Shown in pieces: positions 2,192-28,762 of a DNA stretch of 29,978 nucleotides; position 1 is the stretch's first letter, and each line of letters opens with the position of its first letter. The position numbers were made by a program, and so were the translations under genes. The DNA is from Burkholderiaceae bacterium. Lineage in GTDB: Bacteria; Pseudomonadota; Gammaproteobacteria; Burkholderiales; Burkholderiaceae. Below the pieces are notes generated by a model, which was not told the DNA's origin, did not search any database, and saw nothing but the letters and a program-made list of their open reading frames with translations. The stretch lies in contig JAGOEY010000002.1 of assembly GCA_017997515.1 (NCBI GenBank), positions 1 to 29,978 on the forward strand, in the 5' to 3' direction.

Positions 2192-3289
2192 TCACAGATC
2201 GCGCAGCGGGTGTGCGTGGGCTGGCCACGGGCTGGTGAAGAACGGCGCGACCATGTCGGCAGTCACCTCTTCCAGCCGGGCCGGGTTCCATTTCGGGCTG
2301 TGGTCCTTGTCAACAGCCAATGCACGAATCCCTTCCACCGTTTCGCTGGCTGCGCCGGGACGCAGGTTAAAACAGCGGCGCACCATGTCGCGCTCCATGC
2401 GCAGGTCTTCGGCCAGCGTCATGGTGCGGGCACGGCGGATTTGCTCCAGCACCACAGCCACCATCAGAGGAGACCGTTTACGCAGGGTTGCAGCGGTGGT
2501 TGTGGCCCAGACGTCTGACCCAGCCGCCTCCAGTGACCGCAGGATAGCCAAGGCGTCTGCTTGCGCGAAATAAGCATCAAATTGGCCTGTAGCGCACGAT
2601 CCACCTGCACCCTTAGCTATTGATTTGGAAGCAAACCAGGCCAGCACTTCTTCTGCGCTGTTGAAGTGTGTATTGGCCAGTCCGTCCCACAAAGCAGGCA
2701 AAGTGGCGGATTCCACCTGCACATCTGCCAGACCCCAGGCCACGGCATTGGCGGGCGACACGGTATCGCCCGTCAGCGCCAGGTATTCACCCACGCGCCC
2801 CGGGCAGCGGCTCAGGAAGTAACCTCCACCAACGTCGGGGAACAGGCCAATGGCCGTTTCGGGCATGGCCATCTTGGTGCGTTCGGTCACCAAGCGCAGC
2901 GCAGCGCCTTGGGAGATCCCCATGCCGCCACCCATCACGATGCCGTCCATAAATGCAATGTAGGGCTTGGCGTAGCTGTGGATCAGGTGGTTCAGCGCGT
3001 ATTCTTCGGTGAAGAAGTCTTCGATTTCGGGGTTGCCTGCCAGCGCAGCCTGGTGCAGAAAACGGATATCACCACCCGCGCAGAACGCGCCAAAGGGGCC
3101 TTCCTTGTTCGATCCGCGGATGGCCACGGCACAAATAGCGGCATCGTCCTGCCATGCCAGCAGGCAGGCCCGCAGGTCGCGCACCATCTGCAGGGTGAGT
3201 GCATTCAAGGCTTTGGGGCGGTTCAGTGTGATGAAGCCGATCTGTCCACGCACTTCGGTCAATACGTCGCGGTTCACTGTCTCTGTCAT
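2192..3289 (-). CDS. Enoyl-CoA hydratase/isomerase family, 3-hydroxyisobutyryl-CoA hydrolase-like
   Basis: A crotonase-fold protein of 365 residues. Its features fit the HIBYL-CoA hydrolase subgroup, which releases 3-hydroxyisobutyrate in valine breakdown: FCAGGDIR (69-76, oxyanion hole), MDGIVMGGGMGIS (114-126), and MPETAIGLFPDVGGGYFLS (142-160) with the acidic residues E144 and D152 expected for the active site. The C-terminal part, with MAVVLEQIRRA and LRMERDMVRRC, is also typical. The extra stretch at about 219-240 (SKSIAKGAGG onward) is encoded by a repeat described separately and looks like an in-frame insertion. Start is ATG at 3287-3289, overlapping the stop of the upstream EamA gene (ATGA). 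A broader enoyl-CoA hydratase role cannot be excluded. Confidence 0.88.
   Translation of the reverse strand: MTETVNRDVLTEVRGQIGFITLNRPKALNALTLQMVRDLRACLLAWQDDAAICAVAIRGSNKEGPFGAFCAGGDIRFLHQAALAGNPEIEDFFTEEYALNHLIHSYAKPYIAFMDGIVMGGGMGISQGAALRLVTERTKMAMPETAIGLFPDVGGGYFLSRCPGRVGEYLALTGDTVSPANAVAWGLADVQVESATLPALWDGLANTHFNSAEEVLAWFASKSIAKGAGGSCATGQFDAYFAQADALAILRSLEAAGSDVWATTTAATLRKRSPLMVAVVLEQIRRARTMTLAEDLRMERDMVRRCFNLRPGAASETVEGIRALAVDKDHSPKWNPARLEEVTADMVAPFFTSPWPAHAHPLRDL
2568..2630 (-). repeat. Coding-embedded repeat, copy 1 (in HIBCH-like gene)
   Basis: On the minus strand this stretch contains AATAGC, then TGCAGGTGGATCGTGCGC, then AGGCCAATTTGATGC. By eye it aligns without gaps to copies at 6588-6650, 23144-23206 and 28000-28062, all inside genes. 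The 3' half is closest to the folP copy, with about 19 of 25 bases identical. It encodes roughly residues 219-239 of the host protein in frame, without stops, and is locally more AT-rich than the gene around it. Copy boundaries are approximate. Confidence 0.6.
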
Positions 3290-4311: not shown

Positions 4312-6138
4312 TTAACCTTCGCGGCCAGCGCGCTTGCGGTCGCTTTCTTTCAGGTGGCGCTTGCGCAGGCGAATCGACTTGGGCGTGATTTCGACCAGTT
4401 CGTCGTCCTCGATGAATTCCACACCGTATTCCAGCGTGCAATCAATCGGGGGCGTGATCTTGACAGCGTCTTCCTTGCCGCTCACGCGGAAGTTGGTCAG
4501 CTGCTTGGTACGGGTGGCGTTGACCACCAGGTCGTTGTCACGGCTGTGGATACCCACAATCATGCCTTCGTATACCGGATCATTCGCCTTGACGAACATA
4601 CGGCCACGGTCGTCCAGCTTGCCCAGTGCGTAGGTGAAGATTTCACCGTCGTCCATGGAAATCAGCACACCGTTCTTGCGGCCACCAATGTCACCCTTAT
4701 GGGGTTCGTAGCTGTCAAAAATGTTGGCGATCAGGCCGGAACCACGGGTCAAGTTCAGGAATTCGTTGGTGAAACCGATCAGGCCACGGGCCGGAATGCG
4801 GTACTCCAGGCGCACACGGCCACGGCCGTCCGGCTCCATGTTCACCAGTTCACCCTTGCGCTCACCCAGTGCTTGCATCACGCCACCTTGGTGACCTTCT
4901 TCGATGTCAGCAGTCACCAATTCGATCGGCTCATGCTTCTCGCCGTTCACGGTGCGGAACACCACACGTGGCTTCGACACGGCCAGCTCGTAACCTTCGC
5001 GGCGCATGTTTTCCAGCAGGATGGTCAGGTGCAATTCACCACGGCCCATCACTTCGAAGATACCTTCTTCGTCGGTTTCGTTCACGCGCAGGGCCACGTT
5101 GTGTTGCAGCTCTTTTTGCAGGCGGTCCCAGATCTGGCGGCTGGTGACGAACTTGCCTTCGCGGCCAGCCAATGGGCTGGTGTTCACGCAGAAGTTCATG
5201 GTCAGTGTGGGTTCGTCCACCTTCAGCATGGGCAGCGGTGTGGGGTTTGCCGGGTCGGTCAGTGTGACGCCGATACCGATGTCACCCAGGCCGTTGATCA
5301 GCACGATTTCGCCGGGGCCGGCTTCGGTCGCTTGCACACGTTCCAGACCCTGGAATGTCAGCACCTGGTTCACACGTCCCTTGACGGGTTTGCCGTCCGG
5401 GCCTTCCATGACGACCACGTCCATCATGGGCTTGATGGTGCCCTGGCTGATACGGCCTACACCGATACGGCCGACGAATGTGGAGAAGTCCAGTGCCGAA
5501 ATCTGCAGTTGCAGCGGCGCGCTGGCGTCACCGGAGTTTGGTGGCACGTGTTTCAGGATGGTGTTGAACAGGGCCGACATGTCGGGGCCCCACTGCTCAC
5601 CAGGCGCGCCTTCTTCCAGCGAAGACCAGCCGTTGATACCCGAGGCGTACACCACAGGGAAGTCGAGTTGTTCGTCGGTGGCACCCAGCTTGTCGAACAG
5701 GTCGAACGCAGCGTTCACGACCTTGTCGGGGTTGGCACCAGGCTTGTCGACCTTGTTAACAACCACGATGGGCTTCAGGCCCAGGGCCAGTGCCTTCTTG
5801 GTCACAAAACGCGTTTGGGGCATGGGGCCTTCTTGCGCGTCGATCAGCAGCACCACGCTGTCGACCATGGACAGCGCACGTTCCACTTCACCGCCGAAGT
5901 CCGCGTGACCGGGGGTGTCCACGATGTTGATGTGGGTGCCTTGCCAGCTCACGGCGCAGTTCTTGGCCAGAATCGTAATGCCACGTTCTTTTTCAATCGC
6001 GTTGTTGTCCATCACCGTGTCGACGACCTTTTCATGGTCGGCGAAGGTGCCGGACTGGCGCAGCAACTGGTCAACCATGGTGGTTTTGCCATGGTCAACG
6101 TGGGCGATGATGGCGATATTGCGGATTTGTTTAGTCAT
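4312..6138 (-). CDS. typA: Ribosome-associated translational GTPase TypA/BipA
   Basis: A 608-residue GTPase of the EF-G-like family that binds the 70S ribosome and aids 50S assembly and growth under stress or cold. The G domain is intact: P-loop AHVDHGKTT (12-20), switch region with the ERGITI motif (51-56), DTPGH (74-78) and NKVD (128-131). The downstream EF-G-like domains III and V and the BipA-specific C-terminal domain are represented by [19 protein letters not shown] and [15 protein letters not shown]. Length matches the family. Its ATG overlaps the truB stop (ATGA at 6135-6138), so it is the last gene of the operon, followed by a terminator. Confidence 0.97.
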
Positions 6139-7121
6139 AGGTTTTCCAAAATGCCGGCCTCGGTGCGCTCCGGCGTGTTTTCTAAAATCTGCTGTATTTC
6201 AAGAGGGCTCAGCAGGCGCCCCGGGATCAGTTCACCGGCCTGGGTATGCCCCACGCCGAGTAGTGCGCGTGGAGATTCTCCAAACACCGCCACCCGCTCC
6301 ATATCCGGCCACGTGCCCCGGCGGCGTACACCACTCAGGAAGCGCCCGGCATTTTCACTGTCCAGCGTGACAACCGTGTGTTCGGCCAGCAAGGACTCAG
6401 CTGGTTGCAGACACTGCAGGCGGTCTGCCTCATCCATCGCTTCCAGCGCGGCCAAGGTGACGCAGTGGGTCAGGTCAAAACCACCGGTTTCGATGCGGCG
6501 CAAAGAGATCAGGTGGGCGCCACAGCCGAGTGCTTCCCCGATGTCTTCGCCCAGCGTGCGGATGTAAGTACCCTTGCTGCATTTTACTATAATTTTGATA
6601 GCTATTTGTGCAGTTGCAGCGGGCGCAAACTCCACATTTAGCTCATAAATTTCCACATTGCGCGGAGCACGCTCCACCTCGATGCCGGCACGGGCGTACT
6701 CGTACAGGGCTTTGCCGTTCTTCTTGAGCGCACTGTGCATGGGCGGAATCTGCTGGATCGGCCCGCGAAAACGCGCCGCTACTTCCCGCAGTTTTTTCGG
6801 CGTGACATGCACTTCGCGCGTAGCAATCACCTCACCTTCGGCATCACCCGTGCTAGTTTTGGTGCCCAGCAGCGCAATAGCTTCGTAAGTCTTGTCCGCG
6901 TCCAGTTGCAACTGGCTGAACTTGGTTGCCGCGCCAAAACACAAAGGCAACACCCCCGTCGCCAACGGGTCCAGCGTGCCGGTATGGCCCGCCTTCTCGG
7001 CGCGCAGCAGCCATTTGGCTTTCTGCAAGGCGTCATTACTCGACCAGCCCAAAGGCTTGTCAAGCAGCAGCACCCCATGCACGGGGCGCCTCGCGACCCG
7101 TGCACGTGGCGTGGCAAGCAT
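6135..7121 (-). CDS. truB: tRNA pseudouridine(55) synthase TruB
   Basis: TruB makes pseudouridine 55 in the T-loop of tRNAs and also acts as a tRNA chaperone. The catalytic region [16 protein letters not shown] (45-60) carries the nucleophile D51. [17 protein letters not shown] (77-93), [21 protein letters not shown] and [19 protein letters not shown] are all family hallmarks. The 328-residue length includes a C-terminal extension with a PUA-like segment. Residues about 158-178 are encoded by an AT-rich repeat (copy 2) that lies just before the CSKGTY strand, where other TruB proteins vary. The start lies 3 bases beyond the rbfA stop and the stop overlaps typA. Confidence 0.96.
6588..6650 (+). 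repeat. Coding-embedded repeat, copy 2 (in truB)
   Basis: On the plus strand: TATAATTTTGATAGC, then TGTGCAGTTGCAGCGGGCGC, ending near CATTTAGCTCATAAAT. Aligned by eye without gaps to the copy at 28000-28062, 35 of 63 bases match, including GATAGC and AGCGGGCGC. The host gene reads the opposite strand, in the same frame relative to the repeat as the DUF4149 copy; the encoded peptides share an APA...A..AI pattern. The base composition is strikingly AT-rich against the rest of truB. Confidence 0.6.
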
Positions 7122-15614: not shown

Positions 15615-15690
15615 TGGTGGGACGTGCGGGGGTCGAACCCACGACAAACGGATTAAAAGTCCGCTGCTCTACCAACTGAGCTAACGTCCC
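15615..15690 (-). tRNA. tRNA-Lys(TTT)
   Basis: Read on the minus strand, the gene starts GGGACGTTAGCTCAGTTGG and has a full cloverleaf: acceptor stem GGGACGT/ACGTCCC, D-arm with GCTC/GAGC, anticodon loop CTTTTAA with anticodon TTT, variable loop, and T-arm GTGGGTTCGACCCCCGC. The discriminator base is A, and the CCA end is encoded (15617-15615). It lies downstream of tcdA, and a hairpin terminator follows it. Confidence 0.97.
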
Positions 15691-21314: not shown

Positions 21315-21391
<77 letters not shown>

Positions 21392-22859: not shown

Positions 22860-23690
22860 TCAAATCACGCTGTGCATGGCGCTCCACACCCGCAGTGCGG
22901 CCACAGTGTCCCGCACATCATGCACCCGCACCACCCTCGCCCCGCGGTCTACCGCAAGCACAGCAGCAGCCACACTGGGCACCATACGCTGTGGCGCATC
23001 CAGGCCGCTCACCGCCCCCAACGAAGACTTGCGCGACCAGCCTGCGAGTATCGGGTACCCGGCAGCCAGCAATGCCTGCTGGCGCGCCAGCAAGGTGAAG
23101 TTTTGTTCCACGGTTTTGCCGAAGCCAATGCCTGGGTCCAGCACAATTCGCGTCAAATCGACCCCTAGCGCCCGTAGATTGTCCGCATGATGCTCCAAAA
23201 ATGATAGCGTCTGTGCCATCACGTCACCCGACATGGGTTCGACCTGCATGGTCTGAGGGTCTCTGTGCATGTGCATCAGGCAGATACCACAACGGGGGTG
23301 CTGTGCCACCACCGCAGCAGCGCCCGGCTGGCGCAAGGCCCAAATGTCGTTCACGATGTCGGCTCCCAGGTCCAGCACGGCCTGCATCACGCCCGCTTTG
23401 TAGGTGTCCACCGACACCGGCACCCCCATGGTCACGGCACCCCGCACCACAGGCAGCACACGTGCGAGCTCCTCTTCCAGCGAGACAGCCGGTGCGCCCG
23501 GCCGTGTGGACTCTCCGCCCACATCCAGGATGTCTGCGCCGTCTTTCAGAAGCTGCTCGCAATGGCGCAGGGCTCCGGCGGTTGAAGCATGTGTGCCACC
23601 GTCTGAAAAAGAGTCAGGGGTGGCGTTGACGATGCCCATCACCTGGGGGCGGGTCAAATCAATGGCGTAGCGGGATGTGGTCCAGAACAT
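22860..23690 (-). CDS. folP: Dihydropteroate synthase FolP
   Basis: FolP joins p-aminobenzoate with the pterin pyrophosphate in folate synthesis and is the sulfonamide target. The 276-residue protein has VMGIVNATPDSFSDGG (17-32), the GADILDVGGESTRPGA loop (51-66), VSVDTYKAGV (92-101), IVNDIWALR (112-120), the LMHMHRDPQTMQ loop (138-149), DPGIGFGKTVEQNF and a C-terminal RVHDVRDT. Residues about 162-182 are encoded by DNA resembling the embedded repeat and use rare codons (CTA, GGG, TTG, CGA). The ATG at 23688-23690 lies only 12 bases from the stem of the ftsH terminator, leaving little room for a normal ribosome site. Confidence 0.96.
   Translation of the reverse strand: MFWTTSRYAIDLTRPQVMGIVNATPDSFSDGGTHASTAGALRHCEQLLKDGADILDVGGESTRPGAPAVSLEEELARVLPVVRGAVTMGVPVSVDTYKAGVMQAVLDLGADIVNDIWALRQPGAAAVVAQHPRCGICLMHMHRDPQTMQVEPMSGDVMAQTLSFLEHHADNLRALGVDLTRIVLDPGIGFGKTVEQNFTLLARQQALLAAGYPILAGWSRKSSLGAVSGLDAPQRMVPSVAAAVLAVDRGARVVRVHDVRDTVAALRVWSAMHSVI
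23144..23206 (-). repeat. Coding-embedded repeat, copy 3 (in folP)
   Basis: Minus strand: GGAGCATCATGCGGAC, then CGGGCGCTAGGGGTCGATTT ending GACGCG. AGCATCATGCG is identical to the copy at 28000-28062, and the second half aligns without gaps to the copy at 2568-2630. The frame is shifted by one relative to copy 1. The peptide fits the usual dihydropteroate synthase alignment in length, so this is the least certain copy. Confidence 0.5.
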
Positions 23691-27837: not shown

Positions 27838-28257
27838 CTATTGTTTGGGAGTAATCCGCCAAAACACGATGGCCGCGCAGAGCCACTGCACCAGGTACAT
27901 CACACTGCCCACTGAATGCCACAGCTTGAGGTTGGTACGTGTGACGATGCGTGGCGCCACGGCAAACTCGACCAGCAAAGCCAGCAGCAGGCCCAGAAGT
28001 ATAAAAACGATAGCATCATGCGCACGCTGAGCGGGCGCCGAAGCCTGTTTTGATGTTGAAATTAACAGCAAAATGCCGCCACAGGTGACGGACACCCAGG
28101 TCTGCGCCGTGAACAGCTTGGCGGCCATGCCGCCTGCGAGAGCAGGCGTAGGCAAGTGCATGAACAGCAAGGGCACCACCAGAAAGCCGATGGTTGTCAG
28201 ACTGCCCCACCACAGCGCAGCGGCATACACCGGCAAGCGCGACAGAATGTTGTTCAT
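27838..28257 (-). CDS. DUF4149-like four-TM membrane protein
   Basis: A protein of 139 residues with about four membrane segments: about 9-33 (with ALWWGSLTTIGFLVVPLLF), 52-66, 81-98 (with IVFILLGLLLALLVEF) and 112-134. The pattern, with SRLPVYAAALWWGSL at the start, fits the DUF4149/TMEM205-like family found next to greA in betaproteobacteria; no function is established. The loop and third helix start (residues 65-86) are encoded by repeat copy 4. It starts 28 bases after the greA stop, so it likely shares the greA transcript. Confidence 0.8.
   Translation of the reverse strand: MNNILSRLPVYAAALWWGSLTTIGFLVVPLLFMHLPTPALAGGMAAKLFTAQTWVSVTCGGILLLISTSKQASAPAQRAHDAIVFILLGLLLALLVEFAVAPRIVTRTNLKLWHSVGSVMYLVQWLCAAIVFWRITPKQ
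28000..28062 (+). repeat. Coding-embedded repeat, copy 4 (in DUF4149-like gene)
   Basis: Plus strand: TATAAAAACGATAGCATCATG, then CGCACGCTGAGCGGGCGCCG, AAGCCTGTTTTGATG and TTGAAAT. It aligns without gaps to the truB copy (35 of 63) and shares AGCATCATGCG and CGGGCGC with the folP copy. The host gene is read from the other strand. The peptide falls in a loop between two membrane helices and the start of the third. Confidence 0.6.
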
Positions 28258-28285: not shown

Positions 28286-28762
28286 TCAGATGTAGCTCAC
28301 TGCTACGATTTCATAACGCTTCGTGCCGCCGGGCGCCTGGAACTCGGCCACGTCGCCTTCGTCCTTGCCGATCAGCGCGCGGGCGATGGGGCTGGACACG
28401 TTGATCAGGCCCAACTTCAGGTCGGCCTCGTCTTCACCAACGATCTGGTAAGTCACGGCTTCCCCGGAGTCTTCTTCTTCGAGCTTGACGGTGGCACCAA
28501 ACACCACGCGTCCACCCGCGTCCAGCGTGGAGGGGTCGATCACCAGCGCGGCCGACAATTTGCCTTCGATATCCTGGATACGTCCTTCCACAAAGCCCTG
28601 GCGGTCTTTGGCGGCGTCGTATTCGGCGTTTTCGCTCAGGTCGCCCTGTGCCCGTGCTTCGGCGATGGCGTTGATGACCCAGGGACGGTCTACCGTCTTG
28701 AGTTGGTGCAGTTCGGCCTTCAGTTTTTCAGCGCCGCGTTTGGTAATCGGAAGTGTGCTCAT
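28286..28762 (-). CDS. greA: Transcription elongation factor GreA
   Basis: GreA rescues backtracked RNA polymerase by stimulating cleavage of the nascent transcript. The 158-residue protein has the antiparallel coiled coil (about 1-75), with the acidic tip [17 protein letters not shown] carrying the catalytic acidic residues. The C-terminal FKBP-like domain includes [36 protein letters not shown] and [14 protein letters not shown]. Ribosome site GGAGCAAT precedes the ATG. A perfect 15-bp hairpin lies 22 bases upstream of the ATG. Confidence 0.98.

Follow-up and report, generated by a model that had tools for sequence, protein, structure and literature searches.

The window (the whole stretch of DNA analysed here, 29,978 nt) carries on its minus strand, at 2192..3289, a gene for a 365-residue protein of the 3-hydroxyisobutyryl-CoA hydrolase/ECH_2 family (HIBCH-like), which aligned to Pfam PF16113 over the full profile (1-335 of 335; protein residues 17-351) with an E value of 4.7e-115, and whose solved relatives by sequence are 4hdt and 3bpt. 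On the coding strand of this gene, at 2571..2641 (-), lies one of four copies of a repeat, with its core at about 2580-2633 and at about residues 217-240 of the protein. A second copy, at 6577..6647 (+), is antisense to truB (6135-7121, minus strand; TruB_N and TruB_C_2), a third, at 23147..23217 (-), is on the coding strand of the dihydropteroate synthase (DHPS) gene folP (22860-23690, minus strand; Pterin_bind, E 6.7e-73), and a fourth, at 27989..28059 (+), is antisense to a DUF4149 gene (27838-28257, minus strand; PF13664, E 5.1e-17) that adjoins greA (28286-28762). The window also contains tRNA genes at 15618-15690 (-) and 21315-21388 (+), and one pair of the repeat family (I12) was among the 25 longest inverted repeats listed for it.

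A preliminary description had aligned four places without gaps by eye, all of them inside genes. By ungapped identity to 2568-2630(-), the places at 28000(+), 6588(+) and 23144(-) agreed at 36, 35 and 32 of 63 positions, the last being weak by this measure because the best of all other places in the window reaches 31. A set of 23 gapless 71-nt copies, none of which came from the window, HIBCH or truB, served to build both a covariance model of 71 columns (R1) and a weight matrix. These copies were what remained of 28 non-HIBCH, non-truB matches after removal of two in the window and of three that were partial or weak; the four window copies were absent from the training set, and the selection was not blind, because the gathering searches had been seeded with them. 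In a search space of the window and 80 loci from relatives (1,499,185 bases), R1 recovered the copies in HIBCH (42.0 bits, E 5.8e-6), the DUF4149 gene (32.5 bits, E 6.4e-4), truB (30.6 bits, E 0.0017) and folP (26.5 bits, E 0.013). With the weight matrix, exactly four places in the window reached 8 bits or more, namely those first seen by eye, with 44.6 bits for HIBCH, 37.3 for folP, 36.8 for DUF4149 and 34.1 for truB, against a maximum of 12.5 bits in 200 shuffles of the window in two-base chunks.

The unit of this family is about 61 bp and, with its left box TGCTAT, extends somewhat further than the original outline had suggested. Its layout is the left box TGCTAT, then ATAGC, GCGC, a variable middle, GCGCTAGAGGC and ATTT, and the G+C content of 73 matches ranged from 34 to 66%. 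The motif holds about 51 bits of information (0.722 x 71), which is more than would be required of a binding site occurring a few hundred times and points to common descent of the copies. The copies align without gaps and look palindrome-like, with long hairpin pairing in 71.3% of cells versus a shuffled mean of 70.4% (32-46% in register-shifted controls), and the pairing showed no covariation beyond that of shuffles. We rejected a conserved RNA hairpin: RNAalifold gave four pairs, none of which had double changes, and pair counts were at the shuffle level. When the window and four loci (109,128 bases) were compared with Rfam, the only hits at gathering score were two tRNAs, with no match to the repeat.

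The preliminary description had further proposed that the HIBCH copy was an in-frame insertion, which the orthologues do not support. The segment corresponding to residues 217-240 was 24 residues long, as in the query, in 76 of 80 orthologues (25, 25, 27 and 29 residues in the other four), and its length was equal whether or not the DNA resembled the repeat, the repeat being present in many orthologues (e.g. L005, L006, L013 and L049) and unrelated G+C-rich codons occupying the site in L017, L033 and L043. Since orthologues are equally long, an outcome that the preliminary description had itself named as refuting its proposal, and in keeping with the full-length alignment to PF16113, we rejected insertion in this gene. 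An additional order-wide search found HIBCH in 8 of 60 genomes at E 1e-60, and these were left out of the length comparison. In the predicted fold (mean pLDDT 86.0), the segment comprises the end of a helix (212-220), a loop (221-233) and the start of another helix (234-241), with pLDDT below 50 at residues 225-228; in this model the copy would lie in a loop that tolerates it, and an added protein function is not expected.

Genome-wide counts were obtained with R1 at E 0.01 for the 79 whole genomes behind the relatives' loci (L018 left out). At least 50 matches were found in 47 genomes (repeat-rich) and 24 or fewer in 31 (repeat-poor), with 32 in one (L027); these counts are lower bounds drawn from the best 125-128 candidates per genome, and many genomes had at least 125-128 matches. 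Across the wider order, searched with stricter filters, at E 0.001 and among the best 20 candidates per genome, 7 of 250 genomes, the centre genome G010 among them, had a match. We listed 73 matches in two contiguous 400-kb stretches, one taken from the genome of L010 (Acidovorax temperans) and the other from that of L023 (Rhodoferax bucti). This density of about one per 11 kb extrapolates to an estimated few hundred copies in each repeat-rich Comamonadaceae genome. With genes assigned by a codon-usage caller and one match (L157:13475-13542, overlapping another on the opposite strand) left out, the 72 classified copies comprised 31 inside genes, 35 between genes and 6 at gene edges. Genic copies kept to particular frames in which stops are avoided: phase 2 held 15 of the 17 sense copies, and phase 0 held 13 of the 14 antisense ones. 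The earlier expectation of a family lying both between and inside the genes of Comamonadaceae-labelled genomes, with genic copies in open frames, was borne out.

Even spacing along the chromosome was rejected, with intervals in G022 resembling random placement (CV 0.91, random 0.97) and those in G010, the genome of L010, being clustered (CV 2.44, random 0.95). One stretch of G010 (C2, ~462000-645000; L144-L153) had no listed copy over about 183 kb that include ordinary genes such as rpsM and some transposases, copy density being uneven. Carriage by phages or plasmids was likewise rejected, each on the query of one copy, which matched none of 50,697 phage records and a single one of 72,556 plasmid records (Diaphorobacter, 78.5% identity over 63% of the query).

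Genic sites were common to several genera, and the presence of a copy at a given site followed the status of the genome. Taking the best place in each gene and requiring at least 15 bits with the weight matrix, the HIBCH site was occupied in 42 of 49 rich genomes versus none of 31 poor genomes, and the truB site in 38 of 41 versus 2 of 27 (L064 and L068, with 24 and 16 copies); for these two genes the window and L018, which have no genome counts, were taken as rich. Five further genes were compared in 30 of the 79 genomes (folP in 29; DUF4149 in 28 by search, of which 27 were tabulated); of these, thiL, dapE and gph had been picked for the copy that each contains. Rich versus poor, the site was occupied in 17/17 versus 0/13 for thiL and also for dapE, 14/17 versus 0/13 for gph, 11/17 versus 0/12 for folP and 14/17 versus 0/10 for DUF4149. 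Rich genomes below 15 bits numbered seven at HIBCH (L012, L021, L030, L032, L055, L076 and L080) and three at truB (L002, L030 and L055), so that L030 and L055 were without both, and six lacked the folP copy. In truB the repeat was antisense at one site in many relatives, with the same spacer length in most, and the folP stretch was gap-free in all 29 orthologues fetched. By eye, copies at L016:12483-12553 and L075:19820-19890 lie just 5' of a similar coding stretch (WGGNL) and may mark a further gene with a repeat at a shared site.

The match lies in the DNA far beyond what the proteins require. With the place fixed, the protein kept and codons redrawn from codon usage, the four window copies had z scores of 5.3 (HIBCH), 5.8 (truB), 5.5 (folP) and 6.4 (DUF4149), and none of 400 recodings scored as high in any of them. 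Mean z for rich versus poor orthologues was 5.12 versus 0.72 for HIBCH, 5.32 versus 0.74 for truB, 3.54 versus 0.52 for folP and 6.39 versus -0.01 for DUF4149, with z above 3 in 4 of 26, 3 of 25, 1 of 12 and 0 of 5 poor orthologues, respectively; the test dropped 5, 4, 0 and 5 orthologues, and L027, with its 32 copies, was placed in neither class. Individual codons illustrate the pattern. In the frame of folP the consensus has two stops (TGA TAG), at which motif-bearing genes have instead TTG GAG or similar, matching the motif on both sides of the avoided stops. In dapE of the Acidovorax group, codons that are native in poor relatives supply both ends of the motif, one end being AAA CGG/AGG CCT where G023 has CGC CGG CCG. 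At the other end, K-T-I-V-F is written with ATA in 8 of 12 genomes, at a place where G017 and G023 have ACC CTG GTG. ATA is a rare codon, used for 2.3% and 3.3% of isoleucines in the two 400-kb stretches. In Rhodoferax and Polaromonas, more of the element lies upstream of an intact K-T-L-V-F in dapE.

Copies in unrelated genes also varied together by lineage. For each of the ten pairings of HIBCH, truB, thiL, dapE and gph, copies were more alike within than between genomes, with a mean excess of 0.041 and permutation p values from 0.0002 to 0.043, which are too favourable because related genomes share versions; 13 controls with shifted register or flanks gave -0.003 to 0.008. Like the site counts, this comparison took the best place per gene, and the drift holds although the repeat is sense in some genes and antisense in others. 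The centre of the consensus likewise differs between the genomes of the two 400-kb stretches (GCGCTTnnCnnnCAAGCGCTAGAGGCC versus GCGCAnATTCnACGGGCGCTAGnGGCC). Ordinary homologous conversion has a limit of about 25 nt of identical run. Within a genome, copies had a mean identity of 61-63% and a shared run of 25 nt occurred in 0 of 276 and 0 of 903 pairs, so that ordinary homologous conversion seems unlikely.

In a tree of typA and infB (two proteins, 70 tips, some weak nodes), poor genomes fell in several parts and were partly intermixed with rich ones, and we inferred 11 changes of rich/poor status, 13 for the HIBCH site and 12 for the truB site. Shuffled status labels required a mean of 21.9 changes (minimum 15); rich/poor status is thus also passed down by descent, which leaves the genomes non-independent and makes the permutation p values look better than they should. 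Relics in dapE of G034 and in thiL and dapE of G068, read partly by eye, suggest that some poor lineages once carried copies. No trans-acting factor tracking the repeat was found among the candidates compared across 40 genomes, the Y1 transposase (PF01797) being present in 37 and ComEC in 39, in rich and poor genomes alike. With RAYT subfamilies pooled, the three genomes without PF01797 were G005 and G054, both rich, and G068, which is poor. The 37 Y1-transposase matches of G010 have mostly identical scores, suggesting that an IS200-like element multiplied there recently.

Relative to the poor Acidovorax genomes G017 and G023, the net length difference at tightly anchored sites was zero at gph, L141:3234 and L141:5458, and also at L141:39941 (versus G023 only); truB and DUF4149 showed no added length versus most poor relatives. 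Against the same two genomes, thiL had gained 18 nt, dapE 12 to 15 nt and L141:12140 54 nt (versus both). Further net gains were found at L295:8018 (+62 nt), L292:6309 (+65 nt), L139:1500 (+69 to +75 nt) and Polaromonas dapE (L233; +49 to +70 nt). Fine alignments with empty sites were made for three sites, but the sequences had diverged too far for ends or target duplications to be placed. The proposal that translated copies add a peptide, as do the Rickettsia palindromic elements (RPEs), fits a minority of the sites looked at, such as L141:12140 and Polaromonas dapE, and in part for Acidovorax thiL and dapE, and fails for HIBCH, folP and gph. Between guaB and guaA, the repeat lies in a spacer of 75-77 nt in five genomes, in place of which 12 relatives have 63-94 nt with a terminator; elsewhere among the relatives the spacer measures anything from 0 to about 1,030 nt. 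Together, the net gains and the guaB-guaA copies indicate that a mobile or copying phase belongs to the story. Spacer copies were noted at L007:14592-14662, L008:15036-15106, L014:14794-14864, L049:15063-15133, L059:16366-16436 and L037:6516-6586; L005 and L013 have the intrinsic-terminator spacer, such that the near relatives L005 and L007 differ in type. The Polaromonas loci L027, L030 and L063 have a different, G+C-rich repeat-like spacer here, which may be the Beta-proteobacterial repeat element (BRE) or a similar family.

Based on these data, we favour, with moderate confidence, a motif acting at the level of DNA that was partly spread by copying and is maintained by a candidate trans-acting system. 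Observed are recurrence at the same sites in most rich genomes, near-absence from poor genomes, lineage versions common to unrelated genes and a fit at the DNA level well beyond protein needs. Part of the family arose by copying into new places, whereas at most of the genic sites compared the motif overlies sequence native to the protein and lengthens it little or not at all. A putative factor would read the motif DNA and keep its sequence at tolerant places, genic or not; it could be a protein that binds the motif, a system for organising chromosomes or for recombination, or DNA uptake combined with molecular drive, and loss of the factor would lead to decay of the whole set. The pattern in which lineages keep most spellings or lose nearly all hints at such a cellular reader. 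That a word of about 61 bp has been imposed on conserved genes by in-place substitution, concerted across genes and erased together when the system is lost, is a narrower proposition to which we give not quite even prospects. Several observations weigh against a maintained motif: the 183-kb stretch of G010 without a listed copy, the absences at single sites in rich genomes, the few poor orthologues with z above 3, the failure of Y1 transposase and ComEC to track the repeat, the inheritance of status, the net gains near element length, the high information content and the lack of covariation in palindrome pairing beyond shuffles.

The gapless, palindrome-like copies, their open-frame usage and the net gains of 49 to 75 nt, together with the smaller ones in Acidovorax thiL and dapE, are what would be expected of a mobile palindrome of the RPE or MITE type that was inserted in frame into genes in the ancestor of the family, later deletions having trimmed the host loop so that equal lengths are secondary. 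We regard this as rather unlikely, as no length was added in HIBCH, folP, gph (versus G017 and G023) and mostly truB and DUF4149, the folP copy lies in a stop-containing frame of the element, the ends of the dapE motif are built from native codons, and an old insertion leaves unexplained both the concerted drift and the joint loss in several lineages. Short-patch replacement, in which single-stranded pieces of a copy are pasted over host DNA of similar length and compatible patches are selected, could proceed by illegitimate recombination or gene conversion. It would account for differences of equal length in genes and in the guaB-guaA spacer, and the high information content suggests copying; however, a pasted consensus would bring stops into folP, the copies are too diverged for ordinary homologous exchange and the process alone leaves the loss in repeat-poor lineages unexplained, and we consider it improbable.

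An unusually long DNA-uptake sequence, with biased uptake and recombination of better matches driving the motif into tolerant sites, and with a dialect in each lineage, would be a special case of the maintained motif and would explain most features, since many copies are intragenic (31 of 72) and both the dialects and the joint loss agree with it. This possibility is nevertheless unlikely: the motif has about 61 nt as opposed to the roughly 8-12 nt of the uptake motifs covered in the reports consulted (PMC2346458, PMC3630211), and ComEC, whose presence says nothing about specificity, occurs in rich and poor genomes alike. Finally, the repeats might have no function and be ancient AT-rich sequences erased under high G+C pressure, in line with an average G+C, in the fetched loci only, of 63.9% in poor versus 61.7% in rich genomes. 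The ranges overlap, however (53.2-70.1% in poor, 53.9-67.2% in rich), with 24 of 31 poor genomes below the rich maximum, and we think this explanation very improbable.

If the maintained motif is real, the sequences of HIBCH, TruB, DHPS, ThiL and DapE would be partly dictated by a signal unrelated to the protein, and codon use and loop sequences in these genomes should be read with the warning that they carry non-protein information. Lineages with and without the signal would, if the signal is indeed kept, constitute a natural experiment for finding its reader, and because losses have recurred, the question is open to a test in which the gene content of repeat-rich and repeat-poor relatives is compared.

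Searches of open-access literature by titles, beginnings of abstracts, passages and core strings returned no description of this repeat. As a short, palindrome-like repeat of high copy number, it resembles REPs, the GTAG- and CGTC-tagged palindromes associated with RAYT transposases, some of which lie inside genes (PMC3733652, whose main text has no mention of Acidovorax, Polaromonas, Rhodoferax or Comamonadaceae); in the accounts consulted, however, REPs are 20-40 bp long compared with about 61 bp here, and the Y1 transposase does not track our repeat. The BRE, described from Bordetella and Comamonadaceae with some copies wholly within coding sequences (Hot et al. 2011, PMC3110155), is, in the parts of that report consulted, 75-91 bp at full length, often tandem, with an average G+C of 69.0% in Bordetella and at most 29 copies. 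Our family, with a unit of about 61 bp, a model of 71 columns from 23 gapless copies, 34-66% G+C and at least 125-128 matches in many genomes, does not fit a tandem element of about 90 bp and about 69% G+C, and is set apart from BRE by description rather than by sequence. RPEs, according to the portions of PMC2229807 consulted, are 105-146 bp long, their open frames forming in-frame fusions with host proteins; our repeat shares with them a palindrome-like form, occurrence in conserved enzymes, open frames and both orientations, but most of the genic sites compared here add little or no length and the copies co-vary by lineage. In the passages of PMC2346458 and PMC3630211 consulted, uptake sequences occur in hundreds to thousands of copies, many of them intragenic with orientation bias, and show lineage dialects. 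With its hundreds of copies, many intragenic, its dialects and its permissive sites, the family described here resembles the uptake sequences of Neisseriaceae and Pasteurellaceae, a likeness in sequence pattern, though with a motif about five times longer.
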